Positions 9,607 to 20,110 of a stretch of 24,111 nucleotides of DNA are shown piece by piece. Location: positions 1 through 24,111 of the IMG/VR virus record IMGVR_UViG_3300024273_000474, one strand, 5' to 3'. Under the pieces are notes generated by a model. It was not told the DNA's origin. It did not search any database and saw nothing but the letters and a program-made list of their open reading frames with translations. A program made the position numbers and the translations under genes. The DNA is from a virus. Every line of letters starts with the position of its first letter. Position 1 is the stretch's first letter.

Positions 9607-9960
9607 TTATCCGTCAAGCTCCTCTGCTTGTACTCCCAATACGAATAGATGGAAGTCGGCGGTATCCTTCTTATATGGATTCTTATCTTTACCCTTTGAT
9701 TTGTAACCAGCCTTATATGCTTTAGAAGCTTCTAGTTTCTTAGCTAGTTGCTTATTATCGAAAATTTTAGAAAGGATAGAATCAATATCACCTTCGGGAA
9801 CCTTGGTGTTGCCACCCTTGACAAATACATCGGGGTTAACACCTTCTTCGATATCATCTTCGAAGATTTCTACACTATGTATCTGCATGAAATCATATTC
9901 ACGTTTTGACGTAGTTTGTTCAAGGAGAATCTCTGTTATTGTGTCTCTTATATTTTTCAT
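9607..9960 (-). CDS. Small virion-type protein with RMF-like C-terminal motif
   Basis: A 117-aa protein of unknown function. The N-terminus MKNIRDTITEILLEQTTSKR contains L-L-E, and residues near 35-45 contain D-I-E-E-G-V-N-P-D; both fit the (L/I)-x-E consensus of the T4 prohead protease. The C-terminal part (ASKAYKAGYKSKGKDKNPYK, then F-H-L-F-V-L-G-V-Q-A-E-E) resembles ribosome modulation factor: a G-Y helix, basic loop, N/C-P-Y, then a second helix with L-G-x-x-A. This similarity is short and could be convergent. The ATG overlaps the TAA stop of the preceding basic-protein gene (TAATG), indicating coupled translation. Confidence 0.7.
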   Translation of the reverse strand: MKNIRDTITEILLEQTTSKREYDFMQIHSVEIFEDDIEEGVNPDVFVKGGNTKVPEGDIDSILSKIFDNKQLAKKLEASKAYKAGYKSKGKDKNPYKKDTADFHLFVLGVQAEELDG

Positions 9961-10310
9961 TATGGGTTTTTGTTTTTGATTCTATCTTTTTCTTGTTGCT
10001 TAATTTTAGGAAGAAGCTTCTTAGCTATCTTTGAAATTGCGGCTTTCTTTTTATCTAGCTTCTTATCAATTACTGCTTTCTGTGCAAAGGATAACTGATT
10101 ATATGGCGCTGTCTTTGCTAACTTTGATCTGAGTAAATTTTTTGCGGCTTTATCCGCTCTCGTTTTTAATTTCTCTGGGTTAGCCTTCTTATTCATCGCA
10201 ATCTTTCTCTTAATTGCAATCTTGGGTGCTAGTCTCTTCATCAAGACCGACCTCTTGCGCCTTTGTTGAACAGTAAGTGCTTCGTTATAAAAGTCCGCGA
10301 ATGATTTCAT
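9960..10310 (-). CDS. Very basic internal-protein-like protein with capsid-targeting-like N-terminus
   Basis: A 116-aa protein, extremely rich in Lys, Arg and Ala, with no enzymatic motif. It starts MKSFADFYNEALTVQQRRKR. The M-x-x-F-x-x-(F/Y)-x-x-E-A pattern parallels the T4 capsid-targeting peptide MKTYQEFIAEA, although P3 is Tyr rather than Leu/Ile. The remainder (KRLAPKIAIKRKIAMNKKAN and similar stretches) looks like a nucleic-acid-binding helical protein. I recall similar basic proteins in marine T4-like phages. A plausible role is a head internal protein packaged with DNA. The ATG overlaps the stop of the upstream 214-aa gene as ATGA, and the next gene starts on its own stop codon, so three genes are translationally chained. 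Confidence 0.75.
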   Translation of the reverse strand: MKSFADFYNEALTVQQRRKRSVLMKRLAPKIAIKRKIAMNKKANPEKLKTRADKAAKNLLRSKLAKTAPYNQLSFAQKAVIDKKLDKKKAAISKIAKKLLPKIKQQEKDRIKNKNP

Positions 10311-10951
10311 ATTTCTATTTCTAACATGGTTTGTTTATTAGGATATTTAAATAATTCTGTTGAAACTGAGTTTTGGGGTTCGACCACAATTAATTCCCCA
10401 TCTACATAAATTATATTCAGCATATGGTATGAACCGGGCCTGCCTCCTACAAAACCGAATTCTTCTTTATTGTGAACAACCATCTTGCCAACCGCTATAT
10501 TTGTCCCCCATTTATGATTATATAATTCAACAAAGGCTTTGAATGCATTGGAATAATTATCACAGTCAAAGATTTCAAAGATGAATATTATGTCATTATC
10601 AAATATGTACCATTCCCATGCTTTTATAATAGTCTTATACTGTTTCTTTGTGATGTCATTATATTTACTGTCTCTGAATCTAATACTGTATGATGTCAGA
10701 TTACTATTTGATATGATCTCAGCCGTAAGAGCGCCTCTTCTTACTATTGCACCCGGCTCAGGTATATCATCATTTCCTTTCTTGAAGATGCCCCATCCTT
10801 CTGTGGGTGGATTTAAATGTTTCGCCTCATTATCTGGGTTATATTGATATGAGGCAATAGTCATAGTCTTACCCAAATTCATTGAGAGGATAAAATAAAT
10901 CCCAAGGACTGAACCTATAACAAAAGGCAAAAATTTCATAATATTTTTCAT
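10307..10951 (-). CDS. Membrane-anchored papain-like cysteine-peptidase-like protein
   Basis: A 214-aa protein. Residues 5-25 (MKFLPFVIGSVLGIYFILSM) form a signal anchor. The C-terminal domain has F-D-C-D-N-Y-S (C130 at the start of a helix), YHMLNIIYVDGELIVVEPQN (H176 on a strand, followed by E-P-Q-N at 191-194). This C...H...(E/N) order, with D-C-D-x-Y and V-E-P-Q, resembles the papain-like or transglutaminase-like cysteine-enzyme fold seen in some phage and lectin-associated proteins. Activity is unproven: it may process cell-envelope peptides, or use the fold for binding. It follows the coiled-coil/TM gene by 15 bases, so a lysis or envelope-related pair is possible. Family not identified with certainty. 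Confidence 0.65.
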   Translation of the reverse strand: MKNIMKFLPFVIGSVLGIYFILSMNLGKTMTIASYQYNPDNEAKHLNPPTEGWGIFKKGNDDIPEPGAIVRRGALTAEIISNSNLTSYSIRFRDSKYNDITKKQYKTIIKAWEWYIFDNDIIFIFEIFDCDNYSNAFKAFVELYNHKWGTNIAVGKMVVHNKEEFGFVGGRPGSYHMLNIIYVDGELIVVEPQNSVSTELFKYPNKQTMLEIEI

Positions 10952-10966
10952 AATCGTGATTACATA

Positions 10967-11227
10967 TTAGCGGATGAGGAAGAATAGTGTGCCGATGCCG
11001 GCGGTGATAATTGTTGTTAAGATTGTCCAAAAAACTCTATTCACAAGCATTACGGTATTTGTATTATCATGTGTTTCTTGTTCAACTAGTCTTACTCTTT
11101 CCTCTATGGATTCAAGTTTTGAAAGAGTGGATTTGACAGTTATATCGATAGATGATAGCTTTTCCTCTGCTCTAGCGAGGGAAACCACTGCATCTCCAAT
11201 TCTCTGTAGGTCGGTTTTTTCGGCCAT
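10967..11227 (-). CDS. Coiled-coil protein with C-terminal TM, XhlA-like (holin-associated?)
   Basis: An 86-aa protein: a charged amphipathic N-terminal part (residues 1-60, including KSTLSKLESIEERVRLVEQE) with heptad-like spacing, then a C-terminal hydrophobic segment (VFWTILTTIITAGIGTLFFL, about 66-85). This topology, and the R-x-x-x-V-E-Q-x-x-H-x-N-T-x-x-x-x-x-V-N-R-x-F-W pattern, is like the XhlA haemolysin family, which acts with holins in phage lysis. It could equally be a membrane-tethered structural or superinfection-related protein. It lies 22 bases after the 613-aa polyprotein gene and upstream of the cysteine-peptidase-like gene. Confidence 0.7.
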   Translation of the reverse strand: MAEKTDLQRIGDAVVSLARAEEKLSSIDITVKSTLSKLESIEERVRLVEQETHDNTNTVMLVNRVFWTILTTIITAGIGTLFFLIR

Positions 11228-11249
11228 ATAATTTTTCGGTACGAGATAG

Positions 11250-13091
11250 TTATTTCTTTTTACAGAATTGTTTGTATGCTTTCTGAATTACGGAAGGCAT
11301 CATTGTTAGATCAATGTTGGCTTCTGCAATAAATTCATTGATATTTTCAGGCTTTTCTCCAAGAGAAACTTCTACCACTCTAGTAAGTCTCTGATGTGCC
11401 ATACTATTCTCTTTCATCTCTTCACCTTTTGGACGATCTTTGGTATTGGATGGATAATGAATTCTTACGGGATTATTACTTATAAAGATTAATTCGCCAT
11501 CGGCATCTAGACCAGCCATGGTATAGTTACCATCTTTCATTTTAAGATCATTCATAGGCCCAAGTTTGATAGCGCCTTGTCTTACATTAGAAATGAGGGG
11601 CTTGAGATTATGTTTCTTGATAAGTTTTTCTCTTTTATTATCATTATCCTTTGTTCTGATCCAAGCCTTTTCTAATTCCTTAAATGGAAGTGCAGCTTCT
11701 TCAAGCTCAATTGATTCAAGCAGCTTGCGATCCTTTAGTTCAGACCTTACAACATTATTTGGAGCTTCCATATTGGATGGAGCACGAACTCCAAGGAGGG
11801 CAGTAAGACCTTGTGTTAGATCAGCATCCTTAATCTTGCCAGATTCAATTGCTTTTACAATGTTCTTTGTAATAGTAGCGCGTTGATTCTTCTTTACTGC
11901 ATCGCTCATGATCACGATCTTTTCAACCCAAGATTTCAGAGATTCTTCACCCTTTTTAATAGAGTACATACCTCTATGTGTTTTAACCTTGATCGCTTCT
12001 TCAAGATCAGCTGCTTCCTTAACTGGTTTGATTCTAACGTATTTCTTTTGGATTGCGTTGCGTTTCCAATCCTTCTTATTAAAGTTTCTGAAGTTTTTAA
12101 CTTCATCATATTCATCATAAGTCAGTACATTTGTCTTTTCAAAGTCCATATCTCTTGACTCACCTAATACAGCATCTACACTACCACTTGGAACTGTGAT
12201 TGGATCGCCCTTCATTTGCTTAATCCCTTTCTTGATGGCTTGAGCAGAGTTGTGGGCTTTTACGTCAACTGTTTGACCCTTAAAGAGTTTACCAGCTTTC
12301 TTCGTGATAGTAACTGTCCACCATTTGATTGCTTCTTCAAGGTCTTTATCAGACTCCTTTACAAACTTGGTGATCTGACCTTTTAAGATCTTCTTAGCTG
12401 CATCTGCATGAGCCTTAGATATTTTCGATTCTAAATCAAGATCTTTCATCTTCTTAATCAATGCGTCGGCATCCTTTCCTCCTTTGAGTCTTAGCGCTTT
12501 AAGAACCGATTGGACTGTTGCACTTGCTTCTTCAAGATCAACAGATTCTTCTTCAAGCGCTCTAACACCAAACCTAGGGAAATACCTATCATTTCTCTTT
12601 TTCTTAATGTTAGCCTTATCCTTATCATTCGGATTCGCGAATATTTCCTTGGCTTTTTTAAGATCGCTTGCGGAAATTTTCGTATCTTGATCTTTCTTAG
12701 CAATTAAATCTCTGAACTTAACAGCAGCGGGCGTGGTCTTCAGTAACTCAATTGCGTGGCGAATATCACGATAAAAAACAGCTTCATCTAGATCAGTTGA
12801 TTCGACATAGGCATTCAACTCATATTTGCCAGAATCCATGCCATAGACTTGAAAGGCTAGTCTTTTCTTTGTGTCTTTACCTTTCTTGGTAACCTTAACG
12901 ACATATCGATTAGTCTTACCCTTACTTGGCTTCTTGGGGCCAGTTGAGACTTGATTGAACCAATCATCTTCATCAACTTCAAATCCTTTTTTCTTAGCAA
13001 GATCTAAGGCAGCTTGCGATGCGGCTGTAAATGTATTATGATATAGCTCGTAATTAGCTTCTTCAATGTTTGCGTTTTCTTGAGTTTTCAT
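11250..13091 (-). CDS. Candidate head polyprotein with repeated (L/I)-x-E-A cleavage sites
   Basis: A 613-aa protein from MKTQENANIEEANYEL (ATG 13091). A longer frame to 13220 is possible but would overlap the upstream gene by over 120 bases and adds a low-complexity Lys/Ser segment, so I reject it. The protein is a string of small, unrelated-looking, Lys-rich domains separated by near-identical linkers: NIEEA (8-12), DLDEA (100-104), DLEEA (185-189, 250-254, 362-366), ELEEA (462-466) and FIAEA (587-591). These match the T4 gp21 prohead-protease consensus (L/I)-x-E with Ala at P1'; the last reads NEFIAEA, sharing EFIAEA with T4 internal-protein targeting peptides as I recall them. The first domain (NYELYHNTFTAASQAALDLA onward) resembles one I recall from other phage structural proteins. 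I infer a head-packaged polyprotein or scaffold. Predicted fragments are 22-124 residues. Confidence 0.75.
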   Translation of the reverse strand: MKTQENANIEEANYELYHNTFTAASQAALDLAKKKGFEVDEDDWFNQVSTGPKKPSKGKTNRYVVKVTKKGKDTKKRLAFQVYGMDSGKYELNAYVESTDLDEAVFYRDIRHAIELLKTTPAAVKFRDLIAKKDQDTKISASDLKKAKEIFANPNDKDKANIKKKRNDRYFPRFGVRALEEESVDLEEASATVQSVLKALRLKGGKDADALIKKMKDLDLESKISKAHADAAKKILKGQITKFVKESDKDLEEAIKWWTVTITKKAGKLFKGQTVDVKAHNSAQAIKKGIKQMKGDPITVPSGSVDAVLGESRDMDFEKTNVLTYDEYDEVKNFRNFNKKDWKRNAIQKKYVRIKPVKEAADLEEAIKVKTHRGMYSIKKGEESLKSWVEKIVIMSDAVKKNQRATITKNIVKAIESGKIKDADLTQGLTALLGVRAPSNMEAPNNVVRSELKDRKLLESIELEEAALPFKELEKAWIRTKDNDNKREKLIKKHNLKPLISNVRQGAIKLGPMNDLKMKDGNYTMAGLDADGELIFISNNPVRIHYPSNTKDRPKGEEMKENSMAHQRLTRVVEVSLGEKPENINEFIAEANIDLTMMPSVIQKAYKQFCKKK

Positions 13092-13098
13092 TATTTTT

Positions 13099-13836
13099 TT
13101 AATCTTTATTAATCTTTTTAGCGATATCATCTTTGATCTTGACTGGATATTTCTTGCCTTCAAATTCGAATTCTTTCTTGCCAGCAAGTTTAGCGTCTGC
13201 CGCAGCTGCGGTGAATGCATTGCTTTCTTCTTTTCTTTTTAGAATTCGCTTTACAGCTTCGGCCACTGATAGTGTCTTCTTATCATTTTGTTTTTTATCT
13301 TCCTTAGTGAATCTTCTTTTCTTTTCTTGACTTAATGCCTTCATCACAGTTTTAGAAGTTGATCGGCCGACATTTTTAAAAATTTTAAGAAGCTCATCTA
13401 GCTCTTTATCTGATAGTCTCATATAATCAGATGTTGTGGCTTCAGATTCCATTTCTGGCTTCTCATGTGAATAACCCATTTTCTTCATTTTCATATGATC
13501 TTCTGGCTTTTCAGCCTTATATTCTTTGCCCGTCTTGGGATCATACATCATGTGGGGTTCAAAATCTTTTGATTCATCCATGTTCTTGGCAATCTTATCG
13601 GCCACATCTTTCTTCAACTTGACCTTATATGTCTTATCTCCGAATTTAAAGTCTTTCTTGCCTGCTTTAGCAGCCTGTGCGAGAGCCCCCATAAAGGCAG
13701 GGACATCTTCATCGATTATGTTTTTAGGTATAAATTTTTCTCTTTTCATTATAGTTTTTTGCCCTGGGCTATTCTCTTTGTATTTATAAGATATCTGTTT
13801 TGTACCTATCTCTAAATATTCGTTAAATTGTATCAT
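13099..13836 (-). CDS. Prohead-core-like protein with an internally duplicated domain
   Basis: A 245-aa, Lys-rich protein. Two copies of one module are visible: residues 46-85 (PAFMGALAQAAKAGKKDFKF with F-G-D-K-T-Y-K-V-K-L-K-K-D-V-A-D-K-I) and 207-245 (NAFTAAAADAKLAGKKEFEF with E-G-K-K-Y-P-V-K-I-K-D-D-I-A-K-K-I). Between them lies HMMYDPKTGKEYKAEKPEDH, then MKMKKMGYSHEKPE, a motif I recall from phage structural proteins. The start MIQFNEYLEIG overlaps the upstream stop as ATGA and has an F-x-x-Y-L-E element like capsid-targeting peptides. A second possible start, MKREKFIPKN at 13749, lies 32 bases after a TATAAATA octamer (13781-13788) and would keep both repeats. Probably a scaffold or internal head protein. 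Confidence 0.75.
   Translation of the reverse strand: MIQFNEYLEIGTKQISYKYKENSPGQKTIMKREKFIPKNIIDEDVPAFMGALAQAAKAGKKDFKFGDKTYKVKLKKDVADKIAKNMDESKDFEPHMMYDPKTGKEYKAEKPEDHMKMKKMGYSHEKPEMESEATTSDYMRLSDKELDELLKIFKNVGRSTSKTVMKALSQEKKRRFTKEDKKQNDKKTLSVAEAVKRILKRKEESNAFTAAAADAKLAGKKEFEFEGKKYPVKIKDDIAKKINKD
13781..13788 (-). promoter_or_regulatory. Possible T4-type late promoter inside the 245-aa gene
   Basis: Minus-strand TATAAATA (13788-13781) lies within the first 20 codons of the 245-aa gene and 32 bases before the in-frame ATG at 13749. It could drive a shorter product and the downstream polyprotein. Its location inside coding sequence makes chance occurrence a real alternative. Confidence 0.4.
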
Positions 13837-16190
13837 CCTCCAACCTTTGCTGCTAAATCTTTATCTGCGCCATCCCAAGTACCTTTACTCTTAGTTGCGA
13901 AAGAATTTACTCTTGCATAGCCCCATTGAGTCGCGGTTGTACCAGGGCGATGACCTGTTTTCCAAGCGGCGACACCACGGTCGAAAACTTGTTTAAGAAT
14001 ACCGTATGAGATGCCAGTTTTATCTGCTTTCTTCTGAAGACCTTTCTTTGTATCTTCATCAATCGGTATTGGTTCTAGCTTGGCTTTCTTTCTAAGAGCA
14101 TTTAATTTCTTAACAACACCCTTTTGATTCTTCGAACCTGGAACTTCTTTCATGGCTTTACGAAGAAGTTTAATCATTTCGGGGTCCATTGTACCTTCAG
14201 ATTTAGTATATTGACTTTTAATCCAATCTTGGGCAATCTTTGATCTCGGCTGCTGATCAGTAAAATTCTTCATCTTCTTATAAGCATCAGTTGTTGCCTT
14301 TTTCCAATTTGAGCCGATTGAATTATCCACGACGACAAATTCATTTCTGAAGAGTGCTTGGAATTTACCGATATTCTTTTGAACATCTTGCCACATAGAT
14401 GTGACCTCAGCTGACCCGAGGCTTCTTGATCTTTTTGCGTCGCGTTCAATTGCGGTGTCGAGGTCTGTATTAACAAAGATCATTGCTACATCGTAGCCGA
14501 TAGCTTTCAACTGTTCGGATTGGCCTTTGATCTTAGCAAAGTCTTTTCCAGTTCCATCAATGATGAGTCCGAGTCGGCCAGAGATATAAAGTCCCATCTG
14601 TTTAGCAGTGAGGGCTTTTGCGCCTCTTCTTATCTCTTGTCCTTTTGGAGAAAAGATAAATTCAGGTTCCAGTGTGCCTCCAGCTTTAACAATGGCCTTC
14701 TCAAATGCAGGATCAGAATTAACTAGTTTGAGACCAAGGGCACCCAATCCTGTTTGACCCACTGTGAATGATTTACCTGATCCAGGTCCACCCGCGAGGA
14801 ATACGGCTTTAAAGATTGCTGGATCATTTACACCCTCTTCTACATTATCCTCAGTATCTATGATAGGATTTTTATCTTCAACAAGTGTGTAGCCCAACTT
14901 AGGAACATTATTATATCTATCTAGCTCTTGACCGGATGGTGTTTGAATTGATACACCGCCTTTAATCTTTACAATTTTAAGCGAAGAAGCATTTGATCCA
15001 TATTCTTTTTTCAGATGCTTCTTGAGTTCTGACATAGAAAAGTATTCAGTCTTCTCACCAAACATATCTTTGAATTTCTTAGTATGTTGTGACGGTTTTG
15101 TTGTAGCAGATGCATCACCAGGTGCGGGCTTAGTTGATTTCTTCTTAAAGTGTGCGGCTCTTTTCTGTTTTGTAGATTTGGCCATCTCATCACCGTCTGC
15201 ATCTTTTGCAAAATACTTGGCGGGTTGAGAACCTTTTCGATCTTCAATTTCCTTATCTTGTTTTACCTCAATGATTTTATCAAGGAAATATTTCTTATCG
15301 TCAGAGCCGAGAATAAAATTTGTACATCTTTCTACAACAGAGTGCATCTCGCCGCTCATTGTGAGGAATTTGTCACCTACTAGGAAAACATCTTCTGCGA
15401 TATATCTTTCTCTAATATTAGTCTTCTTTAATTCGATGTGTTTGCGAAAACTTGTCATCTCTTTCAATCCCATTCTCTTTCGAAGAAGATTGAAAACCGC
15501 TAATTTGTCGCCATAAGATTTCGGCAAGCCGTTTGCGAATGATTTGAAATCACCTTCGATTGCTGCTGCTCTCATCTTAGAAGCAGACATACCTGAAACA
15601 TCATCTGCATCTGGGTCTCGTTCGCCCGCAGATACAATCGAGATTCCATCTGGAAAATCATAGAAACCGTGGCGGGCTTGGACGCCATTATACTTGGTTA
15701 GTAATTTCTTAAAATCTGAAATTCTATCAGCACCAACAACCATTGTTACTTGTGTATATCCTGCATCATAGAGATAAACCAGAGCATCAATTGCATTCTT
15801 GATCTTATTATCTAGAACAATGTTGCGCCCAAACTTAGGGAATATCTTCCGCATCAATTGAACCTTCTCTTTATATTTAAGGGGGTTCTTTTTCTCATCA
15901 TCTGATTGTGATGCAAAAATTCTATAATCATTACCGATAGCAAGCGAAGCAACCTTGATCAAGAGTTTTTCGTGGCCTGTTGTGGGTGGATTGAATCGTC
16001 CAAAGGTAAATACAGCAGCTTTTATTTTCTCTTCTCTGAATTGCTTAAATCCTTTTATGTTTATAGATTCTAAGGTGCGCTTTCTCTTCTGCGCTTGATA
16101 AGCAAGAATACCGTCGGGATCATAATCTGTCCCAGCCGCGTTGGTGTAATCAACCACCGTTAAGTCTTTAAAGCTATATTTATCTTTCAT
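13833..16190 (-). CDS. Nucleotidyltransferase / P-loop kinase fusion with phage virion modules
   Basis: A 785-aa mosaic protein. Residues 58-240 form a cytidylyltransferase/NMN-adenylyltransferase-type domain: FTFGRFNPPTTGH (61-73, with the T-x-G-H nucleotide site), VVGADR (151-156) and SGMSASKMR (199-207, the S-x-S-x-x-R signature). A linker region includes MTSFRKHIE, YIAED (263-267) and QPAKYFAKDADGDEMAKSTK. Residues 461-640 are a P-loop kinase/zeta-toxin-like domain with Walker A GGPGSGKS (467-474) and I-I-D-G-T-G (543-548). The C-terminus (715-781, including GVAAWKTGHRPGTTATQWGY) matches a phage domain I recall as DUF5824. GFKQFREE (47-54), YIAED and NVEEG (449-453) look like targeting or protease sites, so it may be cleaved into separate enzymes. 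Substrates are unknown; NAD-related nucleotides are one possibility for the first domain. Confidence 0.8.
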   Translation of the reverse strand: MKDKYSFKDLTVVDYTNAAGTDYDPDGILAYQAQKRKRTLESINIKGFKQFREEKIKAAVFTFGRFNPPTTGHEKLLIKVASLAIGNDYRIFASQSDDEKKNPLKYKEKVQLMRKIFPKFGRNIVLDNKIKNAIDALVYLYDAGYTQVTMVVGADRISDFKKLLTKYNGVQARHGFYDFPDGISIVSAGERDPDADDVSGMSASKMRAAAIEGDFKSFANGLPKSYGDKLAVFNLLRKRMGLKEMTSFRKHIELKKTNIRERYIAEDVFLVGDKFLTMSGEMHSVVERCTNFILGSDDKKYFLDKIIEVKQDKEIEDRKGSQPAKYFAKDADGDEMAKSTKQKRAAHFKKKSTKPAPGDASATTKPSQHTKKFKDMFGEKTEYFSMSELKKHLKKEYGSNASSLKIVKIKGGVSIQTPSGQELDRYNNVPKLGYTLVEDKNPIIDTEDNVEEGVNDPAIFKAVFLAGGPGSGKSFTVGQTGLGALGLKLVNSDPAFEKAIVKAGGTLEPEFIFSPKGQEIRRGAKALTAKQMGLYISGRLGLIIDGTGKDFAKIKGQSEQLKAIGYDVAMIFVNTDLDTAIERDAKRSRSLGSAEVTSMWQDVQKNIGKFQALFRNEFVVVDNSIGSNWKKATTDAYKKMKNFTDQQPRSKIAQDWIKSQYTKSEGTMDPEMIKLLRKAMKEVPGSKNQKGVVKKLNALRKKAKLEPIPIDEDTKKGLQKKADKTGISYGILKQVFDRGVAAWKTGHRPGTTATQWGYARVNSFATKSKGTWDGADKDLAAKVGG

Positions 16191-16191
16191 G

Positions 16192-17427
16192 TTATCTTTC
16201 CCATCCTTTAATCACATCTTTACTAAAATTGTTGGTAGAGAATTCAAGTCTATCCACAAGTTTTACTGCACCATTGCTTGTCTTATCAATAGCAACAAAC
16301 CCTTCTGAACCTGTAACCTTGAATCCATTCTTAGTGCGCACAAATGTTTTCATCTGTTTCACCTTATCTAGTTTATTTATAATAATCAGCTTGGCATCTA
16401 CGATGGCGTTTTGGAGTTCAAATACAAGTTCAAGATTCTTTCTATTTTTCGATGAGAAGAAACTCATGAGTTCTTGCTCCTTCTTATCGACTCCTTCTTT
16501 ACCCTTTGGTGATTTTCTTTGTAATCTTTCTTTTTCGAATTTGGCCTTGAACCAAGCGATCAGATCATTGACATGTTTTGTAGGAGATGCTATTCTTTCT
16601 CCTTTACGAACTAGTGTATTATTAAATGTTTCGAATTGTTGTGCAAGAGATTGATTATTTTCAATCTGGCGAAGAGTCGATCCTGCAATCTTCTGAAATA
16701 TCTTTCCAGCATCTGTTAGAGCCGTATTAACCTCTAAGGTATCTGCCGCGGTGAAAGTAGCCTTGCCACTCACATCATTATATTCAGCATCTTGAAACCA
16801 AACAGAGTCGGTCTTATTCAACTTAGTCATATCAACCTTGAATTTGGCAGTCATGTTTTCGAATGAATCGCCTTCGTATGTTGTATGGAAGACCACACCA
16901 ATCTTTGCTTTTGCTATCTGCTTACCGAGATTAGAATCCACAGGAACGGAATAAACAATGGTGTTGGGTTGGAATGTGTAATAAGATTGCCCTTCAATGG
17001 ATTCGTTAGAGACATCTCCAGAGGTAAACATTATGTCACCTTGAATAACACCCTTGATTCCCAATTTCTTTAATTCATTGTATGCGATTATCAATTTGTC
17101 CGCAAGATCACCTGATGTATCAGCCTTGACGTCTGCTTCAGATTTATATACCTTAGGATCTTTATTGAAAATACCTTTCTTAGCAACAAAGAATTTTCCA
17201 TCAGAAGGGTCAATCCCAGCAAAGACGGCTGGTGCACCATCCCATTTAACTGTTACATCATGAGAATTGCTGGCATTACCTGCAAGCATATCTCTTAAAG
17301 ATCGGAGAGCAAAGATGGCTTCTCTAGCCCCTTTAACACCACCATAGATCACACGATCTTCGATGTGTGTCATATGGGTATTCTTGCCCGACTTATTTTC
17401 TAATATATACTGTTTAAATGTTTTCAT
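16192..17427 (-). CDS. Ligase-superfamily nucleotidyltransferase with capsid-targeting-like N-terminus (DUF6267-like)
   Basis: A 411-aa protein. The N-terminus MKTFKQYILENKSGK closely parallels the T4 capsid-targeting peptide MKTYQEFIAEA, with I-L-E as a predicted prohead-protease site. Downstream are motifs of the covalent nucleotidyltransferase (ATP-dependent ligase/capping enzyme) superfamily: motif I K61-W-D-G (VTVKWDGAPAVFAGI), a motif III-like strand VIQGDIMF (127-134), motif IV EGFV (375-378) and motif V KLVD (389-392). A large helical insertion separates III and IV. T-H-I-E-D at 20-24 and D-P-S-D-G-K-F-F-V-A-K-K-G-I-F match a family I recall as DUF6267 in marine phages. Lys61 would be the adenylated residue. 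Whether it joins DNA, RNA or something else is unknown. The ATG overlaps the cupin gene stop (TAATG). Confidence 0.8.
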   Translation of the reverse strand: MKTFKQYILENKSGKNTHMTHIEDRVIYGGVKGAREAIFALRSLRDMLAGNASNSHDVTVKWDGAPAVFAGIDPSDGKFFVAKKGIFNKDPKVYKSEADVKADTSGDLADKLIIAYNELKKLGIKGVIQGDIMFTSGDVSNESIEGQSYYTFQPNTIVYSVPVDSNLGKQIAKAKIGVVFHTTYEGDSFENMTAKFKVDMTKLNKTDSVWFQDAEYNDVSGKATFTAADTLEVNTALTDAGKIFQKIAGSTLRQIENNQSLAQQFETFNNTLVRKGERIASPTKHVNDLIAWFKAKFEKERLQRKSPKGKEGVDKKEQELMSFFSSKNRKNLELVFELQNAIVDAKLIIINKLDKVKQMKTFVRTKNGFKVTGSEGFVAIDKTSNGAVKLVDRLEFSTNNFSKDVIKGWER

Positions 17428-17747
17428 TAAAGTTTTTTCTCAGATTTTGCTTCGGTAAATTCTCTAAATGATTGCATGTATTTTTCTTCGATAGAAATTT
17501 TAAGTGGTGTTGTACCTGATTTATATAGTCTGTGATAATCCATCTTTTTCACCTCGAGAATATCTCCAGCACACATCTCCTTTGGGATTTCATTATCCAT
17601 TTGGAACATCCAACCTTTACCTTCTAAGACAGTAATGGTTCTATTTTCTCTATCACGGTGCCAAACCAATTCATCCGATTCAATGTTAGATTCAAATGTA
17701 CGAATCTTTAGTTTGCCTTCTGTTTTATCTGTGTATGGTTTACTCAT
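17427..17747 (-). CDS. Cupin-fold protein with C-terminal SFREFTEA tail
   Basis: A 106-aa protein when started at MSKPYTDKTEGK (ATG 17747, one base after the upstream stop); a GTG start eight codons earlier is also open. Residues about 28-85 have a cupin-like strand pattern: L-V-W-H-R-D-R-E-N-R-T-I-T-V-L-E-G-K-G-W, then P-K-E-M-C-A-G-D-I-L-E-V, D-Y-H-R-L-Y-K-S-G and L-K-I-S-I-E-E. The G-D and H-R positions suit the second cupin motif. Metal binding is plausible through the two His residues, but the full H-x-H set is absent. The C-terminus MQSFREFTEAKSEKKL resembles the capsid-targeting peptide, here at the wrong end of the protein. Function unknown. Confidence 0.7.
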   Translation of the reverse strand: MSKPYTDKTEGKLKIRTFESNIESDELVWHRDRENRTITVLEGKGWMFQMDNEIPKEMCAGDILEVKKMDYHRLYKSGTTPLKISIEEKYMQSFREFTEAKSEKKL

Positions 17748-17748
17748 A

Positions 17749-18270
17749 TTACCAAAAAAAGTTGCCTCCACCTTTTAAGCCAAGTTCTGATGCATATCGT
17801 GGAAGATTGCAACTCCAGTAACCTGCTTTTGTTTTATCTTTTTTAGCTGCGCAGTTGTGGCGAGCCGCGAATGATTTTCGAGCTTCGGGATCATCGATCT
17901 TAGCCTTAAGACCAGATGTATCACCAAACTGCACCTTGATTACATTACCCTTATCATTTTTTACATAGACATAAAATTTCTTTTTGCCTCCTCTTTTGGG
18001 CTTATTCAAATCAACTTCATCACCTTTATATTCTGCTTCAATCAATGGATGATCAAGTGGAACTTCTTCACCTTCATACATTGCAAGTTTACCTATGTCA
18101 GTCGATAAGAGATATTCATCAAACTCACTCAAGGGTTTATACATCTCTTGTAGTTGTCTAGCATGTTCAAATAACTTATAATAATTATCTGAATGTGGAC
18201 GAAAAATATTCTCCGACAGAGGAATCTGATTCTCTCTGTGAAATCTAAATGCTGCTTCTAATTGACTCAT
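17749..18270 (-). CDS. Conserved phage protein with RHNC...YWSC motif
   Basis: A 173-aa protein. The N-terminal half (MSQLEAAFRFHRENQIPLSE, then N-I-F-R-P-H-S and F-D-E-Y-L-L-S-T-D-I-G) and the C-terminal half (KKFYVYVKNDKGNVIKVQFG, SFAARHNCAAKKDKTKAGYW, then S-C-N-L-P-R-Y-A) are both ones I recall from myoviruses, where they occur fused or alone among structural genes (DUF6321-like C-terminus). Two cysteines (R-H-N-C and Y-W-S-C) could bind metal. The sequence P-L-I-E-A-E-Y is another (L/I)-x-E-type site. I know of no function. Its ATG overlaps the TAA of the preceding 602-aa gene (TAATG), so the two are translationally coupled. Confidence 0.75.
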   Translation of the reverse strand: MSQLEAAFRFHRENQIPLSENIFRPHSDNYYKLFEHARQLQEMYKPLSEFDEYLLSTDIGKLAMYEGEEVPLDHPLIEAEYKGDEVDLNKPKRGGKKKFYVYVKNDKGNVIKVQFGDTSGLKAKIDDPEARKSFAARHNCAAKKDKTKAGYWSCNLPRYASELGLKGGGNFFW

Positions 18271-20078
18271 TATTTTAAGAATTTGATAAATTTATCGTAA
18301 GGTATCTTTTTAGTTCCTTCAAAGTTAAATGAAAATCTACCTGATGCATTTGTACCTGTTCGGAATGCCGTGTAATAAATTTGATTATCTTCAATATCAC
18401 TAACAACATATAAATCAATATTTAGATATTTTTTATCTTGTGTATTGAGTCGGATGCCTGAGATAGGGAATTGAACATCTTTTAATTTAGCCTTTTTCTT
18501 TTCAACATAGTCTGAGGCTGATCCAAGATATTCATATGATTTGCCGCTCGATTTGCCATACACTTTATACATCGGAAGAGATGTTTTACCGAAGTAAACT
18601 TCTTTATGCATATCAATCACGGAACTTAATATCTCATCACTATTTGTTGTGCCGATGATTGATTCGACCGAGGACAATGAATAGGAGTTTGATAATAGTT
18701 TAGCGACAATATCAATGTTGATTTCTTTAGATGTTCTAAAGTTTGTTATCTCTGTACCAGTCTTATAGATAAGATAGTCTTTTGTATTATATAGTTGTAC
18801 AATAGTATTTCTTTTATTTTGAACTTCAGTGACTAGTTTATTTGCATTAGAAATACTGATCTTCTCAAGTTTACTATTAAGATTTCCCGCAGCTTTCTTT
18901 TCAATGAGAAATTTATCACCTTCGATGTATTGCTCCATCATCAGCATGTCTGCTTTATCTAAGCCAAATAATTTCTGGTATTTGGCGAATACAATGTTCT
19001 TTTCTGATTTGGCTGCTTTCTTAAATCTACTAGTTATCTTTAACGCAAAATTTTGTATCGATTTTGCTACTTTTAAATATAACCCTTTTATCTTTTCGGC
19101 GGCTGTCTTAAAAATATCGAACACTCCTTCATTCATCTGAAAAGATTCACTAACGATATCTGTGAAATAATCATCGTATGACGGCAACCCATATTTCTGA
19201 ATGATATATGCTGTTACCTTACCTAACTGGGCCTTGTCTGCGGATTTCTTTAATGAAACTTGAATCAGATTGATCTTACTATTTTTTCCAGTAATAACAC
19301 CATTTTTATCAAATGTGAATGTATCTGTTTTCATCGCCTCAATTGTTTTACCCGCATCGGCAGATGAGATGATCATATCTGCTGTATTAGCCTTAACACC
19401 CGTTATCGCAACATTGTCATTCTGTTCTTCTGCCGCATAATAATCATTGATTCTACCGTGAATAATGTTTGCCTTGAATTTCACAAGAGGCATGAAGTCT
19501 GCCATTCCTGCTATAAGACCAATCATCTCAGCAAAATTCTTTGCTGTCATTGTGTCAAACTTAGAGATAAGATTTGATTTGCCCTTTGAATCCCAGTCTT
19601 GTCCATTACCCAAGATACTTTTTATATTGGCAATAACCTTTGGGCGGTCGGCTGCATCTGCTTCTACATCTTTATAATATACACCAAGTGCTTGAACGGT
19701 TTCAAGTGTGGGAGTATCTTTACCCCAATTAATATCTGAGCCCAATTTTAAACCATTGAAATAGTTATCAACTGCTTTTTCATGCCAAGCAAATGAGCCT
19801 ACTGATTTTCCATCTGGTGCATCGAGAATCTCAAATGCAGCACGGAGTTGTTGAGTATTATCTCCAAAAATTAGAGCATCACTTGGTATATTAGCGGGGT
19901 CTAATTTACTAAAGACGGGGCTCGGGGGTAATTTTAATTTATCTCCTACCTTATTTTCAAAGGCAGAGATTTTATCGGTCTTTAAAGTAAAAAGTGAGCC
20001 TGGTCCATATTTGCCAGCACTCACAGTTGCTTCGACAATTATGTCTGAAATTTCTTTGTAATCTTTAAATGATAGCAT
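18270..20078 (-). CDS. Large virion-type protein with targeting-like N-terminus and possible nuclease core
   Basis: A 602-aa protein of unknown function when started at MLSFKDYKEISDIIVEATVS (ATG 20078); an ATG nine bases upstream (20087) is the alternative. I prefer 20078 because M-x-x-F-x-x-Y then aligns with the targeting peptides of neighbours. I-V-E-A gives a protease-type site. Around residues 229-290 the pattern T-A-D-M-I-I ... N-L-I-Q-V-S-L-K-K-S-A-D-K-A-Q-L-G-K resembles divergent PD-(D/E)XK nuclease cores (Asp234; Lys277), but this is tentative. A second M-N-E-G-V-F-D-I-F-K element at about 315 precedes an amphipathic, Lys-rich region, so it may be another fusion. It is the first gene after the late promoter at 20112-20119. 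Confidence 0.75.
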   Translation of the reverse strand: MLSFKDYKEISDIIVEATVSAGKYGPGSLFTLKTDKISAFENKVGDKLKLPPSPVFSKLDPANIPSDALIFGDNTQQLRAAFEILDAPDGKSVGSFAWHEKAVDNYFNGLKLGSDINWGKDTPTLETVQALGVYYKDVEADAADRPKVIANIKSILGNGQDWDSKGKSNLISKFDTMTAKNFAEMIGLIAGMADFMPLVKFKANIIHGRINDYYAAEEQNDNVAITGVKANTADMIISSADAGKTIEAMKTDTFTFDKNGVITGKNSKINLIQVSLKKSADKAQLGKVTAYIIQKYGLPSYDDYFTDIVSESFQMNEGVFDIFKTAAEKIKGLYLKVAKSIQNFALKITSRFKKAAKSEKNIVFAKYQKLFGLDKADMLMMEQYIEGDKFLIEKKAAGNLNSKLEKISISNANKLVTEVQNKRNTIVQLYNTKDYLIYKTGTEITNFRTSKEINIDIVAKLLSNSYSLSSVESIIGTTNSDEILSSVIDMHKEVYFGKTSLPMYKVYGKSSGKSYEYLGSASDYVEKKKAKLKDVQFPISGIRLNTQDKKYLNIDLYVVSDIEDNQIYYTAFRTGTNASGRFSFNFEGTKKIPYDKFIKFLK

Positions 20079-20110
20079 AGTTCCCATAAAATTAAATGAA
20101 GGTGTTTCAT

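Follow-up and report, generated by a model that had tools for sequence, protein, structure and literature searches.

The gene on the minus strand of the window from position 13091 down to 11250 encodes a protein of 613 residues, P0001, which is probably the precursor of several small, mostly basic internal head proteins that are cut apart by a gp21-type prohead protease, packaged and ejected together with the DNA. By the window we mean the whole stretch of DNA analysed, IMGVR_UViG_3300024273_000474, a linear 24-kb fragment from IMG/VR; its phage is a marine T4-like myovirus. P0001 is a string of small cassettes, and in related phages the cassettes recur in shuffled combinations whose joints lie at the same linkers.

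The sequence-only reading had given the position of the gene (11250..13091) correctly; the gene reads on the minus strand, and a plus-strand reading of the interval is ruled out by stops throughout. The frame can be extended to an ATG at 13220, but it would then overlap the upstream gene, whose stop lies at 13099. The seven motifs listed in that reading, namely NIEEA, DLDEA, three times DLEEA, ELEEA and FIAEA at residues 8, 100, 185, 250, 362, 462 and 587, are all exactly in place. In comparison with 20,000 composition-preserving shuffles of P0001, the pattern [LIF]xEA is strongly over-represented: 7 matches were observed and 0.73 +/- 0.84 expected, and none of the shuffles attained 7. The stricter pattern [DEN][LIF][DEA]EA occurs 6 times (expected 0.04). 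The 30 other genes of the window contain 6 matches to [LIF]xEA in total. The T4 late promoter TATAAATA occurs at 5 sites versus 2.3 expected, which is not significant. Pfam gave no domain in P0001, PHROG gave only the uninformative phrog_3808 (E 0.005, no functional label), and phmmer against the PDB gave just a weak match to Csn2 (E 0.22), which we judge to be due to chance. For the individual cassettes, searches with Pfam, PHROG, phmmer and Foldseek found no known function or fold.

The cassettes are described here from the N-terminus, with all coordinates on the minus strand and with a slash marking the predicted cut. The chain starts with an 11-residue leader, MKTQENANIEE/A (13059..13091, site 1), whose cut position fits a short N-terminal propeptide. 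Cassette O (residues 12-103; 12783..13058) ends with the linker ESTDLDE/A (site 2) and is defined by a DNA homology block and by a stand-alone gene in the related locus L020; the block, shared with L004, L003 and L009, covers residues 10-104 and has both edges at linkers. Cassette a2 (residues 104-188; 12528..12782), ending with ESVDLEE/A (site 3), occurs in other contexts in L015 and L025, and an 83% identical copy of cassette a3 (residues 189-253; 12333..12527; ESDKDLEE/A, site 4) is found in L015. The most widespread cassette is A (residues 254-311; 12159..12332) with 19 copies on 18 contigs; it has 12 different neighbours on its left and 12 on its right and is tandemly duplicated in L008/L009. 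Cassette G (residues 312-365; 11997..12158), delimited by means of relatives, is joined to A without an LxEA and ends with EAADLEE/A (site 5). Cassette H (residues 366-465; 11697..11996; ESIELEE/A, site 6) is missing between A and B in L007 and L004. The remaining part, cassette B plus the C-terminal mini-domain I (residues 466-613; 11253..11696), was delimited by alignment and AlphaFold2 models and contains FIAEA at residues 587-591. The earlier description of the stretches between the sites as compositionally distinct small domains is supported by these data.

Judged from sequence comparison, six of the seven sites are module joints common to the relatives. The seventh, FIAEA at residue 587, had also been proposed as a cut site, and it is probably none: in an alignment of 12 relatives the position reads FIKES, FISKS, FVASS, FISSA etc., with Lys, Ser or Thr taking the place of the P1 Glu in several of them, and in both AlphaFold2 models it lies within a helix of the compact, best-predicted C-terminal domain. 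For these two reasons we count six credible sites, which agree with the pattern L/I-x-E (often before Ala) of gp21 substrates. Because A and G, the two cassettes within the piece 254-365, are not separated by an LxEA, and because residue 587 is excluded, the predicted number of products is six domain-bearing fragments plus the 11-residue leader instead of the up to eight proteins suggested before. If cleavage takes place as predicted, the mature fragments would have computed masses of 7.1-17 kDa and pI values of 8.75-9.57.

Among isolate phages, tblastn detected only Melnitz (46% over residues 3-95), and near-identical DNA was not found there. In IMG/VR, the first query retrieved 21 related loci, and two further queries added more. 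The small domains recur in these relatives, where their order, their number and their distribution over genes differ and where they are connected by linkers of the type ES(V/T)DLEEA; a lack of the repeated linkers in homologues, which would have spoken against the sequence-only reading, was not observed. Cassettes were defined by cutting the proteins at the linkers and by subsequent clustering. The 44 non-redundant polyproteins, including those of loci recovered later, have 44 architectures. Clustering sorts their cassettes (median length 69 aa) into 49 families of at least two members and leaves 49 singletons; 33 of the 322 co-occurring family pairs occur in both orders, and there are 5 tandem duplications. 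The longest polyproteins (L031, L098) contain 11 LxEA sites in about 900-930 aa. L098 (3686-6475) and L116 encode a 931-aa polyprotein that has 11 LxEA sites and linkers of the same DNA sequence, but the clustering found none of its cassettes in the others; the pool of cassettes is far from exhausted. A further domain, DKDIDNDGDVDSSDEYLHKRRKAISKA, is present in the polyproteins of L029, L015 and L098 and at the same locus in the cyanophages P-HM2 and S-SM1 and in HTVC008M; we take it to be EF-hand/dockerin-like.

The borders of homology between these proteins coincide with the motif. In alignments with at least 80% identity, 79% of the internal starts and 75% of the internal ends of homology blocks lay at the motif, compared with 20% and 18% for random placement; the maxima of 1000 random placements were 45% and 50%. 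When all BLAST segments were used, the signal was weaker (40% versus 17%), because divergent alignments end early; we rely on the high-identity version. The comparison with L004 is illustrative. On both gene flanks the DNA of the two phages is about 84-85% identical, and the flanking proteins (the DUF6267 protein and a 193-aa protein) are 93-95% identical; inside the polyprotein, detectable DNA similarity is confined to the blocks corresponding to residues 10-104 and 456 onward, whose edges lie at the linkers. In L007, the DNA blocks matching residues 250-311 and 459 onward are adjacent, so that cassettes G and H are cleanly absent. Not every junction adheres to LxEA, as E/G or E/N variants are sometimes found in the relatives. 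Note that a MAFFT alignment of isolated cassettes against the full protein misplaced fragments; an alignment with colinear rows was used instead.

The linkers are conserved at the level of DNA as well. In P0001, five copies of the linker DNA repeat were located on the minus strand: a divergent direct repeat of the family D1 at 12781..12803, direct repeats with the core GATCTTGAAGAAGC at 12526..12548 and 11995..12017, a further copy with the core GACCTTGAAGAAGC at 12331..12353, and a direct repeat with the core GAGCTTGAAGAAGC at 11695..11717. The consensus is about 23 nt long and reads GAATC(A/T)(A/G)(C/T)TGATCTTGAAGAAGC. The P3 Leu of the linkers is encoded by CTT in 92% of the cases (n=85) versus 36% for the remaining Leu residues of these genes (n=950; chi-square p 2e-20, where the p-values of the linkers do not stem from independent tests, as the sequences share ancestry), and the codon GAA is used for 99% of the linker Glu residues versus 82% elsewhere. 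A scan of all viral contigs in IMG/VR with GARTCNRYTGATCTTGAAGAAGC retrieved no more than 39 stretches. Of the loci, 37 were newly fetched, some being other stretches of already known contigs; in these 37, 61 of 61 matches to the linker pattern lay in one frame of long open reading frames with repeated LxE. The conservation at synonymous positions suggests that recombination happens at the linkers. The codon bias could instead reflect common descent; the linkers join different cassettes in different places, however, and this implies travel or recombination of the linkers. Since recombination of T4 at short repeats is documented for microhomologies of 6-10 bp (PMC9391042), recombination between linkers would suffice as a cause of the shuffling.

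What is known about T4 allows us to compare the linkers with sites of the prohead protease. The protease of T4, gp21, has L/I-x-E as its pattern and cuts behind the Glu; gp22, gp67 and one more core protein each end up as several fragments through its action. The internal proteins of T4 carry N-terminal targeting propeptides of 10-19 residues, whose residues 4 and 7 control targeting and whose residues 8 and 10 control processing; an Asp at residue 10 prevents the processing of IPIII (PMC9026906). The sequence of the linkers supports their proposed assignment to the gp21 type LxE/A. The remark that no such multi-cut internal polyprotein was known from T4 has to be qualified with regard to gp22 and gp67, which are multi-cut substrates of gp21 (PMC9026906); hence what is new is not the multiple cutting but that many folded modules are fused and shuffled. 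In a logo of 153 sites selected by LxEA, where the search pattern itself fixes P1 as Glu and P1' as Ala, P3 is Leu or Ile in 88% and P2 is Glu in 58%. The same cassettes are found behind linkers and behind N-terminal leaders. Cassette O follows the leader MISFSQYLIE/A in L002 and the linker DLEE/A in L004, and in L020 it constitutes a separate 111-aa gene with the leader KKFIKE/A; a second cassette follows the leader MQTFKEFTE/A in L026 and ESTQIQE/G in L009. Relatives have MISFSQYL(I/K)E at the N-terminus where the window has MKTQENANIEE. The cut position of the latter fits a targeting sequence of the T4 type, but its lack of aromatic residues at positions 4 and 7 is a weak point of the proposed entry into the head; N-termini with both these aromatic residues and an LxE cut around residue 10 are present in L002 and L009. 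By sequence, gp22 of cultured relatives has AELEE/A (Melnitz) or ETLEE/A (C48C1), and gp23 of Melnitz has FLSE/A. A gp21 gene was found in Melnitz, HTVC008M, C48C1 and two related contigs; it was not found within the 24-kb fragment of the window.

The window contains UvsX-like and gp41-like genes, a DUF6267 gene, a cytidyltransferase fusion and ribonucleotide reductase genes, and their order resembles that in the cyanophages S-SM1 and P-HM2, the pelagiphage HTVC008M and the methylophage Melnitz; some of these genes were identified from sequence and are presumptive. Aromatic residues at both positions 4 and 7 occur in 4 of 31 window genes (0.32 expected from shuffling, P<2e-4), all of which are located near P0001; the N-termini are MKSFADFYNEA, MKTFKQYILEN, MIQFNEYLEI and MLSFKDYKEI. 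All genes described in the following lie on the minus strand. A Lys-rich protein of 116 aa (9960..10310) has the capsid-targeting-like N-terminus MKSFADFYNE/A. Next to it, a stand-alone gene of 117 aa (9607..9960) consists of cassette W, a domain that is the C-terminal cassette of the polyproteins in L017, L021 and L034; as W is both gene and module, gene and cassette are interchangeable forms. On the other side of P0001, a second, smaller polyprotein-like gene of 245 aa (13099..13836; N-terminus MIQFNEYLE) contains one cassette twice, as the divergent copies VPAFMGALAQAAKAGKKDFKFGDKTYKVKL... and NAFTAAAADAKLAGKKEFEFEGKKYPVKI...; this cassette recurs, sometimes in tandem, in relatives. The gene at 13833..16190 encodes a 785-aa fusion of a nucleotidyltransferase (cytidyltransferase-like), a Zeta-toxin-like kinase and DUF5824, as determined by domain searches. 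It is a homologue of T4-GC190, with 46% identity to the member in P-HM2. The kinase part is a separate gene in HTVC008M; fusions and splits therefore extend to the neighbours of P0001. The cytidyltransferase T4-GC190 was detected in purified virions of S-SM1 (PMC3037559), where its N-terminus is MKKFSAFLNE/A. The adjacent DUF6267 protein (16192..17427) likewise has a capsid-targeting-like N-terminus, MKTFKQYILE/N. DUF6267 is widespread in marine T4-like phages (255 phage records). The protein of the window contains the motif KWDGAP, which we take to be reminiscent of the KxDG motif of ligase-type nucleotidyltransferases. Finally, a 605-aa protein (18270..20087) without significant Pfam or PHROG match has the capsid-targeting-like start MLSFKDYKEISDIIVE/A. 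The whole minus-strand block 9960-20087 may encode internal virion proteins.

Structure prediction for the full protein of the window gave a mean pLDDT of only 47.6; from this AlphaFold2 model we considered no more than O, B and the C-terminal region. A relative with five cassettes from L007 (336 aa, alignment of 23 rows) was modelled with pLDDT values of mostly 70-88 in the cassette cores. In this model, pLDDT is below 50 at residues 114-125 and 182-191, which hold the linker residues Glu 124 and Glu 188, whereas the first of the three linkers (Glu 55) is placed with medium confidence in a long helix and not at a clear hinge; part of cassette B is of low confidence, too. The expectation that the sites lie between compact folds is thus supported for the linkers at Glu 124 and Glu 188, which are at low-confidence hinges, and fails for residue 587. 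A Foldseek search with the five-cassette model against the PDB and BFVD gave nothing below E 1e-3.

From these findings we infer the following course of events. The cassettes (about 50-150 aa) would fold independently, joined by linkers of the type E-S-(T/V)-(D/E)-L-E-E/A, and the single chain would enter the prohead core. There, a gp21-type prohead protease would cut after each LxE at the six sites, giving the 11-residue leader and six mature fragments, which would stay with the DNA and be ejected as the internal proteins of T4 are. The released fragments would most plausibly act as early host-takeover or counter-defence factors. The T4 proteins Ip1-3 inhibit distinct GmrSD restriction enzymes (PMC12373910), and it is this analogy together with the rapid turnover of the cassettes that suggests such roles. 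Recombination between linker copies might add, remove, duplicate or permute cassettes with frame and cut sites kept; the frame would be preserved because all cassettes share one frame and are bounded by the same DNA of 22-23 nt. The linker would then serve two purposes, as an in-frame recombination joint of 22-23 nt in the DNA and as a prohead-protease site in the protein. The result would be an open-ended system of cassettes, whose rapidly reshuffled set of small injected proteins needs a single transcript and a single packaging event for its delivery. We propose this dual use tentatively, at somewhat less than even chances.

Several other explanations were weighed against processing by the prohead protease. 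The chain might stay uncut, like beads on a string, with the linker as a flexible hinge and recombination joint and the whole protein acting as one multi-domain protein in the virion or in the infected cell. Modular shuffling alone would yield the same pattern, the linkers are predicted to be disordered, and LxEA is not strict at every junction, as exemplified by A-G in the window and by E/G and E/N in relatives. A simple hinge, however, needs no Leu at P3, no Glu at P1 and no Ala at P1'; moreover, the motif is of the gp21 cut-site type and recurs in gp22 of relatives, and N-terminal targeting leaders that precede cassettes end in LxE/A as well. We consider an uncut chain unlikely. A chance origin of the motif has a negligible probability: the content of Lys, Glu and Ala is indeed high, but the result of the shuffling and the recurrence of the linkers over tens of contigs, where they define the borders of homology blocks, refute it.

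A role in assembly was considered as well. P0001 could be a component of the prohead core or scaffold like T4 gp22 and gp67, which is cut many times and whose fragments leave the head or stay as filler, so that nothing of it would serve injection. The Lys-rich composition would suit such a protein, and T4 gp22 and gp67 are indeed cut by gp21, with most of their fragments removed (PMC9026906). A scaffold should be conserved in close relatives, though, and the modules of P0001 change while the flanks stay 93-95% identical; in addition, cultured relatives already have a separate gp22 beside gp21, and the cassettes of 50-150 aa include several that are predicted to fold. P0001 itself is located after the DUF6267 and cytidyltransferase genes, which is not the place of a conserved core protein next to gp21/gp23. 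A scaffold is therefore quite unlikely. For a polyvalent protein as defined by Iyer et al. 2017 (PMC5512222), i.e. a multi-domain injected conflict protein that is processed by its own peptidase or left uncut, one can cite that P0001 is multi-domain, variable and plausibly injected, and that the idea of several conflict functions per chain is the same. The Pfam and PHROG searches detected neither a peptidase nor another polyvalent-protein domain in P0001, and its very small cassettes are held together by a single recurring linker, which makes this explanation very improbable.

If P0001 is the precursor of packaged and injected proteins, a single gene of marine T4-like phages supplies many injected factors by way of a modular precursor that undergoes reshuffling. 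This would matter, as the internal proteins of T4 belong to the front line of phage counter-defence and each known one has its own gene. The 49 recurring families would then be a catalogue of candidate host-takeover or anti-defence proteins, and the 23-nt DNA pattern is a direct way to find such genes. The same short sequence as recombination joint and protease site is a testable case; if the dual use is true, phages would have their own equivalent of a polyprotein joined with an array of cassettes.

In the open-licence PMC literature, which leaves most subscription journals outside, we found no description of a phage polyprotein with exchangeable modules bounded by prohead-protease sites. Multi-cut gp21 substrates, packaged and processed internal proteins, and polyvalent proteins are already known, and P0001 shares features with each of them. 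The T4 proteins IPI, IPII and IPIII (Ip1-3) are small and basic like the predicted products of P0001, and their set varies between relatives; their N-terminal propeptide of 10-19 residues is removed by gp21 at L/I-x-E, and after injection they block different GmrSD enzymes (PMC9026906, PMC12373910). Each of them, however, has its own gene and its own targeting sequence, whereas in P0001 many would be fused, with predicted internal cut sites and a set altered by intragenic cassette exchange. T4 gp22 and gp67 exemplify one precursor with several gp21 cuts at LxE, as proposed for P0001, and gp22 of relatives has the identical LEE/A; these are scaffolds with mostly removed fragments, in contrast to exchangeable modules that differ between near relatives. 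Polyvalent proteins such as DdrB of phage P1 likewise combine several conflict-type domains in one polypeptide, are proposed to be injected and have been likened to viral polyproteins by their authors (PMC5512222); their domains are larger and often enzymatic, and release is credited to an embedded peptidase; neither a domain in common with P0001 nor a repeated cut-site linker was found. Substrates of the SPN3US prohead protease include head proteins with several sites (propeptides of gp53 and gp54; PMC10052503), but there propeptides are removed, the chain is not divided into many mature proteins, and the motif is A-x-E. The closest counterparts in cultured phages are three genes annotated as 'hypothetical', Melnitz gene 20 (QZI94753.1), C48C1 WJE87968.1 and HTVC008M AGE60466.1, which also follow the DUF6267 and cytidyltransferase genes and contain LxE linkers. 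The Melnitz gene shares cassette O and the HTVC008M gene shares a cassette of L002; in comparison with P0001, the linkers of all three are fewer and less regular.
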